A program made the translations under genes and the position numbers. Shown here in pieces: positions 6,360 through 30,492 of a DNA stretch of 64,000 nucleotides (position 1 is the stretch's first letter; each line of letters begins with the position of its first letter). The DNA is taken from assembly GCF_000019905.1 (NCBI RefSeq), contig NC_010556.1, positions 2,816,001-2,880,000 on the forward strand, read 5' to 3'. The notes under the pieces are model-generated. The model did no database searches and was not told the origin of the DNA. It saw only the letters and a list, made by a program, of their open reading frames with translations. The stretch is from Exiguobacterium artemiae 255-15 (GTDB lineage Bacteria > Bacillota > Bacilli > Exiguobacteriales > Exiguobacteriaceae).

Positions 6360-6974
6360 TCATTTCAGTTCAGCTACCGCAGCAGCCGGTGCAGTCACCG
6401 GTTCACGTGTCATGACCGAGACGACACGTCCTGCAATCGCGACGGCAAGTAAGGTATACAATGTTAAGCTCAACGGCAAGTAGACGAGTGAAATCAGAAT
6501 GACGATAGCGTCAAGACCAAATAAAATCGTCCCGATTGATAAGCCGGTCAGCTTACTGAGTCCCATCGACAACAGATCGTCGCCGCCTGTTGCAGCACCG
6601 CTTTTTAAGACAAGTCCGAGACCGTATCCGGTCACGATCCCGCTTGCGATTGCTGCAATCAAGGTTGCCGGCCAAGCCTGCTCCGGAAAATGAAACAGAT
6701 CCAACCGGTACCACATTTCATAAAATAGCGACAACGCGCCGGCTGAGATCAATGCTTCACCGACAAAGCGTTTGCCTTTAAAATAGAGTGCTCCGATAAA
6801 AAACGGAATATCGAGCACAATCATCGAAATCGATGGATTGATGTCAAAAAAGTAGCGTCCGAGCAACGATAAGCCGATAAATCCGCCTTCCGCCAAACCA
6901 AACTGTTCATTCAAGGTATAGTAGCCGAACGCCATAAGCAGCGTTCCGGCCAAGATGGTCATAATTCGTTTCAT
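6360..6974 (-). CDS. YitT-family (DUF161) integral membrane protein
   Basis: 204 residues with five or six membrane segments. The family signatures are visible: GLAEGGFIGLSLL near residue 26 and the second internal repeat SGAATGGDDLLSM near 125. It lacks the C-terminal DUF2179 domain found in longer YitT proteins (~280 residues). Molecular function is not established for the family; a transporter is likely. The start has only a modest SD (GGGAGAGG, 7 nt upstream), and that SD is one arm of a perfect hairpin. A long structured leader precedes it (see 6975-7174). Confidence 0.8.
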   Translation of the reverse strand: MKRIMTILAGTLLMAFGYYTLNEQFGLAEGGFIGLSLLGRYFFDINPSISMIVLDIPFFIGALYFKGKRFVGEALISAGALSLFYEMWYRLDLFHFPEQAWPATLIAAIASGIVTGYGLGLVLKSGAATGGDDLLSMGLSKLTGLSIGTILFGLDAIVILISLVYLPLSLTLYTLLAVAIAGRVVSVMTREPVTAPAAAVAELK

Positions 6975-7174
6975 GTGTTGTCCTCTCCCGTATCTTCCAT
7001 GGGAGAGGATGTAATTGTCCCGTTTGGGTATTCATCTATTTTCGCTCTCCCTGATTTTTTTCAAGCCATTACCTTCCTGTTCAATGAAGATTGGCGCTGC
7101 TAAAAATCAGGTAAGCTGAATAGATGATCGGTCCTCTCGGTATCCATCGGTTTCCACCCTTTCACGTTTTGTCC
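6975..7174 (-). promoter_or_regulatory. Structured 5' leader of the YitT-family gene, candidate riboswitch of unknown class
   Basis: Three nested stems on the minus-strand RNA: P1 7033-7040 with 7119-7126 (8 bp, perfect), P2 7050-7059 with 7102-7111 (10 bp, perfect), and P3 GCCA/TGGC plus CTTC/GAAG within 7065-7095. Toward the gene, 6982-6989 pairs perfectly with 7001-7008; the 6982-6989 arm is the Shine-Dalgarno. A segment at 7132-7138 (GAGAGGA in the RNA) is complementary to the anti-SD arm, giving an alternative pairing that would free the SD. I recognise no known riboswitch consensus. Confidence 0.65.
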
Positions 7175-7180
7175 TTTCTT

Positions 7181-7209
7181 ATTATAACCCGAACTTCAGA
7201 AACTGAAAC
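7181..7209 (-). promoter_or_regulatory. Promoter of the YitT-family gene leader
   Basis: A perfect -10 TATAAT (7181-7186, minus strand) with a weak -35 GTTTCA (7204-7209) at 17 bp. It predicts transcription starting near 7174, about 200 nt before the start codon. Confidence 0.55.
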
Positions 7210-7307
7210 AGTTTTACACGTTTTTAACATAAACGATACAGGAGACTTGTCTTTTGTTTACCATTTCACATTTTAGACAAATCTATGCTCAATAGTGAAC
7301 AAAGTAC

Positions 7308-7336
7308 TTGAAAACGACTTTGTGAAGTAATACACT
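7308..7336 (+). promoter_or_regulatory. Sigma-A promoter of nox
   Basis: -35 TTGAAA (7308-7313) and -10 TACACT (7331-7336) separated by exactly 17 bp. The start of transcription would be near 7343. Confidence 0.7.
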
Positions 7337-7337
7337 A
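7320..7337. promoter_or_regulatory. Rex-like operator overlapping the nox -10
   Basis: TTGTGAAGTAATACACTA matches the Rex consensus TTGTGAA-N4-TTCACAA at 12 of 14 fixed positions and covers the -10 element. Rex senses NADH/NAD+ and represses redox genes such as NADH oxidase. Confidence 0.5.
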
Positions 7338-7352
7338 AGGATATCAAATGAA

Positions 7353-7368
7353 TGTGATTTTTATCACA
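7353..7368. promoter_or_regulatory. Fnr/ArcR/Crp-family palindrome downstream of the nox start point
   Basis: TGTGATTTTTATCACA is a perfect TGTGA-N6-TCACA site, as bound by Fnr, ArcR and Crp-family regulators of Bacillales; it also scores as a weaker Rex box. Its place about 10-25 nt after the predicted start of transcription points to repression. Confidence 0.6.
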
Positions 7369-7394
7369 AACAAAACAAAAAGGGGACTTTACTC

Positions 7395-8747
7395 ATGAAA
7401 GTAGCAGTCATCGGTTGTACACACGCAGGAACAGCAGCAGTTAAAGAATTAACTTCACAGCACGAGCAATTGGATATCACCGTTTACGAACGAAACGATA
7501 ACGTCTCTTTCCTCTCTTGCGGCATCGCGCTTCACGTCGGTGGCGTCGTCGAGCATGCTGAGTCGCTGTTTTATTCTTCACCGGATGAACTGGCTGAGCT
7601 TGGTGCAAACATGCGCTTAAAACATGATGTTCTCGAAATCGACAGCACGAATCAAACGATTGTTGCCAAAAACCTCGTAACGGGTGAAACCGTTTATGAT
7701 ACGTACGATAAATTGATCATGACGACGGGTTCATGGCCGATCATCCCGATGTTACCGGGGATTGAACTCAATCAAATCGAGCTCTGTAAAAACTATCACC
7801 ATGCACAAACAATCATTAAAAAAGCGACAGATGCAAAGCGGATTACAGTCGTCGGTGCCGGCTACATCGGTGCTGAACTGGTCGAAGCGTTTGAAGCCTA
7901 CGGTAAAGAAGTCACGTTCATCGACAGCGCTGACCGAATTTTAAATAAATACCTGGATCGTTCCTTCACCGACATCATTGAAAACGAATTGACGGATCGC
8001 GGCATTCGTTTAGAACTGAACCAGACTGTTCAAAGCTTTACCGGTGTTGACGGAAACGTCACACAAGTCGTCACGGATAAAGGAACGTTTGAAACAGATC
8101 TCGTCATTCTCTGTGTTGGTTTCCGACCAAGCACGGAACTGTTAAAAGGACAAATCGACATGTTACCGAACGGTGCCATCATCGTCGACGACTTTATGCG
8201 GACAAGTAATCCGAACATCTTTGCCGCCGGCGACAGCTGCGCCGTCTACTACAATCCGGCCCGGACACATGCGTATATTCCGCTCGCGACGAATGCCGTC
8301 CGTATGGGAACACTCGTCGGGAAAAACCTGCTTGCTCCGACAATCCGTTATCAAGGAACGCAAGGAACATCCGGTCTGCGGTTATACGACTTGAATATCG
8401 CGTCAACCGGTCTGACGGAAGATGCCGCGCCATTCTTCGGTTTGGAAGTAACGAGCACGACGGTTCAGGATGCCTACCGTCCTGAGTTTATGCCGACAGC
8501 TGAAAATGTCCAATTAAAACTCGTTTATGAAACAACGACTCACCGTCTTGTCGGAGCGCAAATCATCTCAAAAGTTGATTTGACACAAGCCATGAATACA
8601 TTATCGGTGGCCATTCAAAACGACATGACGCTCGAAGAATTGGCGTTTGTCGACTTCTTCTTCCAACCGCATTACAACAAACCATGGAACCTGCTGAACC
8701 AAGCAGCTTTACAAGGCATGAATGAGCTGACATCGGAACGCGTTTAA
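7395..8747 (+). CDS. nox: Water-forming NADH oxidase (CoA-disulfide reductase/Nox family flavoprotein)
   Basis: 450 residues. An FAD-binding Rossmann motif opens the protein (VIGCTHAGTAAVKEL), followed by the single redox Cys42 in SFLSCGIAL, an NADH-binding GAGYIGAEL near 155, the second FAD motif (NIFAAGDSC near 277) and a dimerisation domain at the C-terminus. One active Cys reduced via a sulfenic acid is typical of H2O-forming Nox, which oxidises NADH with O2. CoA-disulfide reductase is the main alternative. The upstream Rex- and Fnr-type boxes favour an NADH oxidase role. AAAAAGGGGAC precedes the ATG. Confidence 0.85.
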   Translation: MKVAVIGCTHAGTAAVKELTSQHEQLDITVYERNDNVSFLSCGIALHVGGVVEHAESLFYSSPDELAELGANMRLKHDVLEIDSTNQTIVAKNLVTGETVYDTYDKLIMTTGSWPIIPMLPGIELNQIELCKNYHHAQTIIKKATDAKRITVVGAGYIGAELVEAFEAYGKEVTFIDSADRILNKYLDRSFTDIIENELTDRGIRLELNQTVQSFTGVDGNVTQVVTDKGTFETDLVILCVGFRPSTELLKGQIDMLPNGAIIVDDFMRTSNPNIFAAGDSCAVYYNPARTHAYIPLATNAVRMGTLVGKNLLAPTIRYQGTQGTSGLRLYDLNIASTGLTEDAAPFFGLEVTSTTVQDAYRPEFMPTAENVQLKLVYETTTHRLVGAQIISKVDLTQAMNTLSVAIQNDMTLEELAFVDFFFQPHYNKPWNLLNQAALQGMNELTSERV

Positions 8748-28524: not shown

Positions 28525-30207
28525 TTACATTTCTTCCGGAGCGCCGACGCCAAGCAGGCGTAATCCTTCCGTCAATACAATCGTAACCGATTTTACGAGT
28601 GCGAGGCGAGATTGTTTTTCCGCATCGTCTTCGAGGACACGAACTTGTCCGTAGTATTTATTGAAGCTTTGAGCCAAATCAAGGACATAACGGCTGATGA
28701 TCGACGGTTCGCGGCGTGTAAACGCCCGGTCAATGACAGCCGAGAACTGGTTCAGCATCGATACGACACCCCATGAATAATCATCCGCACTTCCGTTGAA
28801 CGCTGATCCGTCATAAGCACCTTTACGAAGCAGTGAATTTGCCCGTGCATTCGTATATTGGACGTATGGACCGGTTTCTCCTTCAAATTTCAACATCTGC
28901 TCGAGATCAAACTCAATGTTGTTCATGCGTTCATTTTTTAAATCATGGAAAATGACGGCGCCGACACCGACTTCGCGTGCTGTCTGTTCTGCATTGGCAA
29001 GGTTCGGATTTTTTTCAGCGATGTTTTGTTTGGCAACGTTAATTGCATCTTGAAGCACTTCTTCAAGCAGAACAATCCGTCCTTTACGTGTCGACATCTT
29101 TTTCCCGTCTTTCATGATTAAACCAAACGGAACATGGTGCATGCCGTCAACATTTTCAAATCCGAGTTTCTTCAGGACAGCAAACAGTTGTTTGAAGTGA
29201 AGGGCTTGTTCGCCGCCGACAACATAAAACGCCTGTTCGAAGCCGTAAGTCTCAAGACGATACACGGCAGCCGCCAAATCACGTGTCGCATACAGTGTCG
29301 CACCGTCTTTTTTCTTGATCAAGGCAGGAGGCATGCCTTCTGCTTCAAGGTCGACGACCATTGCGCCTTCCGACTCGACGAGCAAATCTTTTTCTTCCAA
29401 TAAGTCGATGACGTGTTGCATCTTATCATTATAGAAGGCTTCTCCGTTTAAGCTGTCAAAGCTGACACCAAGCATTTCATATACACGGCTGAACTCGACG
29501 AGTGAGACTTCACGGAACCATGTCCAAAGTGCTGTCGCCTGTTCGTCCCCCTGCTCGAGTTTTTTAAACCAAGCCCGACCTTCGTCTTCTAAGCCTGGGT
29601 TTTCTTCCGCTTCTTCGTGGAAACGAACGTACAGTTTCAGCAATTCTTTGATCGGCTCAGAGCGGACATCTTCTTCTTTCCCCCACATATTGTAGGCAAC
29701 CATCAATTTACCGAACTGAGTTCCCCAGTCTCCTAAATGGTTGATGCCGACGACCTCATATCCTTTTTTTCGTGAAATCTGGTTCAATGCATTTCCGATG
29801 ACCGTCGAACGCAAATGTCCCATCGAGAATGGTTTTGCGATGTTCGGAGATGAGAAATCCGTGACGATCGTTTTTCCGTTCAGCTCGCTTGATCCGTATG
29901 CCTGTTGTTCTTCTAAGACACGTTTAATAATTTCACGCGAAACCACTTCCCGGTTCAGAAAGACGTTTACATACGGTCCGGCTGCCTGGACGTTTGAAAA
30001 CAGCGGGTTATCGATTTTTTCAGCCAGTTCCGTCGCAATCATCATTGGAGCTTTGCGGAAGGCTTTTGCGAGTTGGAAACATGGGAAAGCCAGGTCTCCG
30101 TGATCCTCGTGCTTCGGCTGTTCGATCAGTTGTTCAATCTCTTCTTGTGACAGGGCGTCACCGATCACATCGTGTAATACTTGGGCATACTGTTGCTTGT
30201 AACTCAT
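28525..30207 (-). CDS. argS: Arginyl-tRNA synthetase
   Basis: 560 residues, normal for ArgS. Arg_tRNA_synt_N domain first, then class I signature FSSPNIAKPFSMGHLRST (HIGH-type), the KMSTRKGRI loop (KMSKS-type) and a DALR anticodon-binding domain from about 440. It charges tRNA-Arg. The frame reaches back to 30225, but ATG 30207 has a GGAGG site 8 nt upstream. An arginine T-box precedes it. Confidence 0.97.
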   Translation of the reverse strand: MSYKQQYAQVLHDVIGDALSQEEIEQLIEQPKHEDHGDLAFPCFQLAKAFRKAPMMIATELAEKIDNPLFSNVQAAGPYVNVFLNREVVSREIIKRVLEEQQAYGSSELNGKTIVTDFSSPNIAKPFSMGHLRSTVIGNALNQISRKKGYEVVGINHLGDWGTQFGKLMVAYNMWGKEEDVRSEPIKELLKLYVRFHEEAEENPGLEDEGRAWFKKLEQGDEQATALWTWFREVSLVEFSRVYEMLGVSFDSLNGEAFYNDKMQHVIDLLEEKDLLVESEGAMVVDLEAEGMPPALIKKKDGATLYATRDLAAAVYRLETYGFEQAFYVVGGEQALHFKQLFAVLKKLGFENVDGMHHVPFGLIMKDGKKMSTRKGRIVLLEEVLQDAINVAKQNIAEKNPNLANAEQTAREVGVGAVIFHDLKNERMNNIEFDLEQMLKFEGETGPYVQYTNARANSLLRKGAYDGSAFNGSADDYSWGVVSMLNQFSAVIDRAFTRREPSIISRYVLDLAQSFNKYYGQVRVLEDDAEKQSRLALVKSVTIVLTEGLRLLGVGAPEEM

Positions 30208-30235
30208 TTTATTTCCTCCAAACAATTATTTTTTC

Positions 30236-30492
30236 CAATAAAAAACGCCCTTTGCGCAACACGCAAAGAGACGGAAAGACCGCGGTACCACTCTTCTTGG
30301 TGTCGACGGTACGACACCCACTTTAACGGGGATAACGGGGTTCCCCCGGCTAGGCCTGATCACATGGATTCGGATAGCATCTCGGAAGTGCGTTTCACGA
30401 TGGTCTAATCTGTTCAGGCTTCCACCATTCCCTGATTCGCTGGTCGATTACATCCTATCGTTACTTTCTTCGTCATCGATTGTCTGATATCT
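30236..30492 (-). ncRNA. T-box leader of argS (arginine specific)
   Basis: The minus strand carries the T-box core AGTGGTACCGCGG (around 30280-30292) followed by a terminator stem CTTTGCG/CGCAAAG and GGCGTTTTTT. Upstream is stem I with GAAAGTAAC and AGGGAATGG-type bulges. In the likely specifier loop (GTGAAACGCACTTCC) the codon is CGC (30390-30392), an arginine codon followed by a purine. Uncharged tRNA-Arg would favour antitermination. Confidence 0.93.

Follow-up and report, generated by a model that had tools for sequence, protein, structure and literature searches.

The window, that is, the whole 64,000-nt stretch of DNA analysed here, carries on its minus strand the gene yitT, preceded by a leader that holds two short upstream open reading frames, uORF1 and uORF2, together with a series of stems (Table 1). 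The gene was found in all 38 Exiguobacteriaceae genomes. YitT proteins occur widely and, to our knowledge, their function has yet to be settled. The predicted model of this protein (pLDDT 81.8) gave no PDB match in a fold search at E<=0.001, and a sequence search with the membrane domain found no relative in the PDB. No conserved neighbour genes of yitT that could serve as a clue to function were found across the compared loci, and since the flanking genes are not conserved the switch described below appears to serve yitT alone. The divergent neighbour at 7395-8747 (+) is a CoA-disulfide reductase / NADH-oxidase-like flavoprotein that reaches the curated cut-off for neither name. Doubt has been cast on grouping the YitT family with ABC proteins (PMC9408558), and macrolide-selected Mycoplasma pneumoniae carried YitT mutations (PMC10240068), which concern a different YitT protein and may give a faint lead to function. 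No description of a YitT leader peptide was found in the collection of open-access papers searched.

Table 1. Features of yitT and its leader, with positions counted from the first letter of the window.
Feature	Position	Strand	Sequence or detail	Basis
yitT	6360..6974	-	204-aa YitT-family membrane protein	PF02588, E = 7e-36
uORF2	6907..7035	-	42 codons, MNTQTGQLHPLPWKIRERTTHETNYDHLGRNAAYGVRLLYLE	SD, ATG and open frame
Segment 4 (yitT SD)	6981..6989	-	GGGAGAGGA	folding, stem finder
Segment 3 (anti-SD)	7001..7009	-	UCCUCUCCC	folding, stem finder
SD hairpin of yitT	7009-7001 / 6989-6981	-	UCCUCUCCC / GGGAGAGGA, 9 bp	
Segment 2	7045..7059	-	P2 3' arm (7059-7050) overlapping GGGAGAG (7051-7045)	stem finder, null tests
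P2	7111-7102 / 7059-7050	-	CCUGAUUUUU / AAAAAUCAGG, 10 bp	
P1	7127-7119 / 7040-7032	-	5' arm UCAUCUAUU inside uORF1 / 3' arm AAUAGAUGA, 9 bp	
Segment 1	7102..7111	-	P2 5' arm, last uORF1 codons up to the stop	folding, stem finder, compensatory changes
uORF1	7100..7147	-	15 codons, peptide MDTERTDHLFSLPDF*, stop TAG then C	conservation, pN/pS
GAGAGGA	7132..7138	-	uORF1 codons 4-6	sequence
uORF1 SD	7154..7161	-	AAGGGTGG	sequence
TATAAT	7181..7186	-	probable -10 of the leader promoter	sequence

From the position of the probable -10 box, transcription of the leader would begin near 7174. The string TTATAAT is retained in nearly all close relatives within Exiguobacterium, and TATAAT-like boxes stand at a comparable position in leaders of other families. 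The leader is strongly structured, with a minimum free energy of -68.4 against -40.8 ± 3.9 for 200 dinucleotide shuffles (z = -7.1). P2 and the inner hairpin, P3, were recovered in the minus-strand sequence as originally predicted; P1 and the hairpin with the yitT SD as one arm are likewise present, but each has 9 bp instead of the claimed 8. The 3' arm of P1 covers the AUG of uORF2. The scan of 6900-7400 against Rfam gave only chance-level matches even at lax thresholds (E<=10), and no family reached its gathering score at the yitT leader or at 14 related loci, in agreement with the original prediction, which had matched the leader to no riboswitch consensus. With the T-box covariance model (RF00230) the yitT leader gave no match. 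The sole T-box of the window lies at 30264-30485 (-) with 102 bits, directly 5' of the ORF at 28525-30225 (-), which by eye reads as an arginyl-tRNA synthetase. The string AAAGGGTGGAAACCG near 7160 was considered as a T-box antiterminator motif and rejected, lying ~15 nt past the probable transcription start with no preceding leader.

The conserved object of the leader is uORF1, within which GAGAGGA lies, a circumstance absent from the original prediction. uORF1 is intact in 38/38 Exiguobacteriaceae genomes of two genera, GAGAGG is invariant in all of them, and the peptide differs between the two genera, MDTERxxxLFxLPDF against MDTER(T/A)WPLFQLPDF. At a threshold of E<=1e-33 for the short form of the YitT orthologue, 70 genomes outside Exiguobacteriaceae were retained among 400 sampled Bacilli, and all 70 carry a related uORF1 upstream of the orthologous yitT, ending in ...RTIWKRYDLSYT* with UAG-C. 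These loci comprise 61 genomes located with a degenerate pattern and nine variants, a residue or two off the pattern, that were read directly; because the leaders share descent, such counts across genomes overstate independence. Their consensus is M-x-P-R-R-T-I-W-K-R-Y-D-L-S-Y-T/I followed by TAG-C, and their uORF1 SD and start read AAAGGATCAGGATACC-ATG or near variants. The 62 pattern matches in the 400 Bacilli genomes all fell in genomes with a yitT orthologue, just 5' of yitT, and the reversed-pattern control gave 0 matches in the same genomes. uORF1 was found at no other gene in the 400 Bacilli genomes, in 399 phylum-wide genomes, in viral contigs or in plasmids; the Exiguobacterium variant was found in no other genus except for one match in a Candidatus Roizmanbacteria contig, taken as chance.

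The Exiguobacterium and other-family forms have in common the start M-x-(P/T)-(R/E)-R-T, an AGG-AC core, Y/F at -6 and L at -4 from the stop, and are probably homologous. Nearly all copies are 15-21 codons long, most retain the AGG Arg codon, and every copy ends in UAG-C, while UAG ends only 2/54 long ORFs of the window. In its true frame uORF1 has a pN/pS of 0.23 in Exiguobacterium and 0.16 in the other families, with values above 1 in the other frames (one exception at 0.8), and in the 36 nt past its stop no frame is constrained (pN/pS about 0.65/0.65). As judged from these substitution patterns, uORF1 is under selection at the peptide level. In one leader (L105, genome G377) uORF1 is duplicated in tandem, with MFPQSIWKRQDLSYT and MFPHFIWKRHDLSYT located some 293 and 187 nt 5' of yitT. 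In the group L071-L101 (alignment A3, columns 3-63), a pairing is predicted between the conserved AAAGGATCAGGATACC that precedes uORF1 and the GATCTCTC codons within uORF1, which could render the frame self-limiting.

Downstream of uORF1 the RNA diverges freely between families, while its pairing arrangement recurs. Segment 1 ends at the uORF1 stop or begins directly after it, and segment 2 consists of an SD followed by ATG. In the window the stem finder gives 10 bp for 1:2 and 7 bp for 2:3 (GGGAGAG/CUCUCCC); the GGGAGAG at 7051-7045, a second copy on the 3' arm of P2 that is complementary to the anti-SD and had been missed by the original prediction, doubles as uORF2 SD and anti-anti-SD. All the leaders examined contain stems 1:2, 2:3 and 3:4, each 5 bp or longer, and the stem sequences vary between groups; the longest 2:3 stem reaches 16 bp (CAACTAACTACGAAAG/TTTTCGTAGTTAGTTG, in the leader with the duplicated uORF1). 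Compared with shuffled partners, 1:2 and 2:3 gave median p values of 0.02-0.03, against 0.43-0.80 for the control 1:3. Stem 3:4 was significant in 16/16 Exiguobacterium leaders, the zone used for it in other families being too narrow. Covarying pairs among orthologous leaders, which the original prediction had made a test of its claim, were found in part: 1:2 is supported by compensatory changes, with a double change from A-U to G-C in P1 that 13/26 sequences retain and three pairs in a further leader group, but covariation of 2:3 was not significant in the alignable group. In addition, 3:4 holds a compensatory change in one leader, L019 (CCTCTCCG/CGGAGAGG). On this comparative evidence the leader has the layout of a four-segment attenuator in which 1:2 plus 3:4 and 2:3 exclude each other, which supports the earlier proposal of a translational cis-regulatory switch with mutually exclusive folds governing the yitT SD.

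uORF2 is out of frame with yitT, spans the SD hairpin and ends beyond the yitT start; its end was taken from the window sequence because the Exiguobacterium comparison sequences end 60 nt into yitT. Of 79 leaders, nearly all have an SD, supplied by segment 2, an ATG and an open frame; uORF2 enters or crosses the yitT SD hairpin, and its overlap with the yitT start recurs in Exiguobacterium and many other leaders. The pN/pS comparison revealed no clear conservation of the uORF2 peptide, so the case for its translation rests on the start site and the openness of the frame; such drift would fit a role in which ribosome passage alone matters.

The consequences of a ribosome on uORF1 were examined with folding models in which a 29-nt footprint, itself an approximation, was moved along 16 non-redundant Exiguobacterium leaders and 37 leaders of other families, with energies that leave out kinetics and proteins. 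In the Exiguobacterium models the cost of opening the uORF2 SD fell from 10.7 to 1.6 kcal/mol with the A site four codons before the uORF1 stop, and to 3.3 kcal/mol with the stop in the A site, while the yitT SD went from 10.1 to 5.4 and 7.8 kcal/mol at the same two positions. In the 37 other leaders the uORF2 SD fell from 6.2 to 3.8 kcal/mol and the yitT SD from 6.2 to 4.1 kcal/mol, or to 3.5 kcal/mol at +12. A ribosome near the end of uORF1 lowered the modelled cost for uORF2 in 16/16 Exiguobacterium and 28/37 other leaders, and that for yitT in 13/16 and 27/37 (mean drop about 2 kcal/mol), with an increase for yitT in 4/37 of the other leaders. The effect peaked when the A site stood within 12 nt of the uORF1 stop on either side (-12 to +12), and shuffling of the downstream segments removed most of this effect, leaving a change of only -0.3 to -1.0. 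A ribosome over the first part of uORF1 produced no SD opening in the model. In the window leader, a ribosome at the uORF1 start raised the yitT SD cost from 8.4 to 13.1 kcal/mol, because GAGAGGA is then hidden. The minimum-energy fold of the Exiguobacterium leaders still contains the 3:4 hairpin with the ribosome parked; release of the yitT SD there would accordingly have to use uORF2 translation or kinetics, which favours a relay through uORF2 in this genus.

Taken together, and on computational evidence throughout, the leader is very probably a ribosome-mediated translational attenuator of the ermB/ermC kind, in which an inducer stalls uORF1 at or near termination, as the comparative sequence data and the folding models both suggest. 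By default, uORF1 would be translated and its ribosome quickly released, 1:2 and P1 would conceal the uORF2 start, and 3:4 would conceal the yitT SD, keeping YitT low. A ribosome stalled at or just before the uORF1 stop would cover segment 1 and free segment 2. By a direct route, expected to be strongest in the other families, segment 2 would then pair with segment 3 and release the yitT SD; by a relay, probably dominant in Exiguobacterium, the freed segment 2 would permit initiation on uORF2, and the passing ribosome would melt 3:4. Through either route the yitT SD would be opened and YitT made. That the stall would fall at or close to termination is suggested by where segment 1 lies and by the invariance of UAG-C. 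The ribosome tunnel accommodates about 30-40 residues, so a peptide of 15-21 residues is too short to leave it and the signal is expected inside the ribosome; a force-sensing arrest peptide such as SecM, MifM or ApdA needs a chain long enough to emerge and be pulled, which the codons of uORF1 do not provide. The signal may be a small molecule in the tunnel, either an antibiotic or some metabolite that YitT handles, or slow termination by release factor 1.

The original prediction had placed the sensor in the RNA itself, as a translational riboswitch in which the leader binds a metabolite and toggles between SD-locked and SD-free folds. The high stability of the leader, its alternative pairings and the lack of a competing Rfam family would suit such a device; however, no conserved unpaired, aptamer-like core was seen in the compared leaders, the downstream RNA has diverged while the uORF1 peptide and its stop have been kept, and what moves the switch in the folding models is a ribosome close to the uORF1 end. 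The proposed switch pair fares no better: the sequence allows GAGAGGA to pair with UCCUCUC, but ~0 base pairs are expected at equilibrium in 10/10 leaders, and outside Exiguobacteriaceae hiding GAGAGGA has no modelled effect. Sensing of a ligand by the RNA thus finds no support, and we regard it as highly improbable; within Exiguobacterium the pairing of GAGAGGA with the anti-SD does act as a weak competitor in the models, with an equilibrium weight of ~0. Even less credible is transcription attenuation of the MsrDL type, in which the stalled uORF1 ribosome would prevent an intrinsic terminator from forming. This shares the leader-peptide logic of MsrDL (PMC10314930), but a search of the minus-strand leader for an intrinsic terminator found no hairpin of that type followed by a U-run, and the last hairpin holds the SD itself.

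Two other explanations keep the uORFs at the centre and dispense with a dedicated inducer. The uORFs might act constitutively, as brakes or as devices for translational coupling that answer to no specific signal, as the overlap of uORF2 with the yitT start and the lack of a known inducer would allow; yet the conservation of the peptide across families and the exclusive helices 1:2, 2:3 and 3:4 would then be unnecessary, and this explanation seems improbable to us. A variant of the attenuator in which the switch opens on slow decoding of AGG or slow termination at UAG-C, under limitation of release factor 1 or translation stress, has a somewhat better though still small chance of being right. 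It would account for the invariance of UAG-C in spite of the rarity of UAG in the window and for the frequent retention of AGG, but sensing of the rate at a stop codon needs no strong conservation of the preceding residues, whereas those of uORF1 are constrained. More specific, and offered tentatively as a reading that may well fail, is the proposal that uORF1 senses a particular small molecule, endogenous or environmental, which is transported by YitT, and acts by blocking release factor 1 at UAG-C, making the leader a translational, two-ORF, Gram-positive counterpart of TnaC and SpeFL. If true, it would offer a first way to learn what a YitT protein has as its substrate. With the ermB/ermC-like attenuator as the preferred reading, the recurrence of the same switch before the same gene in many Bacilli means that the trigger of the pause should reveal the role of YitT, and a leader peptide tied to yitT alone in several families of Bacilli turns the question of YitT function into a screen for what stalls uORF1.

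Among known systems, the segment logic is that of ermC and cat, where 1:2 and 3:4 lock the SD and a ribosome stalled on segment 1 allows 2:3 to form and frees the SD. The yitT leader has the same 1:2, 2:3 and 3:4 arrangement with the SD in segment 4, and uORF1 resembles their leader ORFs as a conserved short frame with its own SD and stop and peptide-level selection. The ermC and cat leaders differ in having only one leader ORF, in which the stall codon is internal, another peptide and drug-resistance genes as targets. In ermB, two leader peptides, ermBL and ermBL2, must both be translated for induction, stalling on the first leader ORF is held to be the trigger and erythromycin is the inducer (PMC8274638). 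There, as before yitT, two successive short ORFs precede the gene; in contrast, the peptides, the RNA and the target differ (an rRNA methylase against the YitT membrane protein), and the stall on the yitT leader is predicted at or near the UAG stop. Stalling at a stop codon is known for MsrDL, a 6-residue leader peptide that halts at UAA by blocking release factors in response to a macrolide (PMC10314930). It shares with uORF1 a very short peptide and, as predicted here, the site of the stall, but it governs transcription termination and uses UAA where uORF1 has UAG. The nascent leader peptide of SpeFL stalls at its own stop codon in a metabolite-dependent manner, and both TnaC and SpeFL act via transcription termination, with tryptophan and ornithine, respectively, as ligands. 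Both are Gram-negative systems whose peptides show no recognisable similarity to uORF1 by eye; the TnaC nascent peptide, too, stalls at the stop in dependence on a metabolite (PMC8429421). Leader-peptide attenuators are known for the most part from genes of antibiotic resistance; the yitT leader would join them as a chromosomal example that is broadly inherited.
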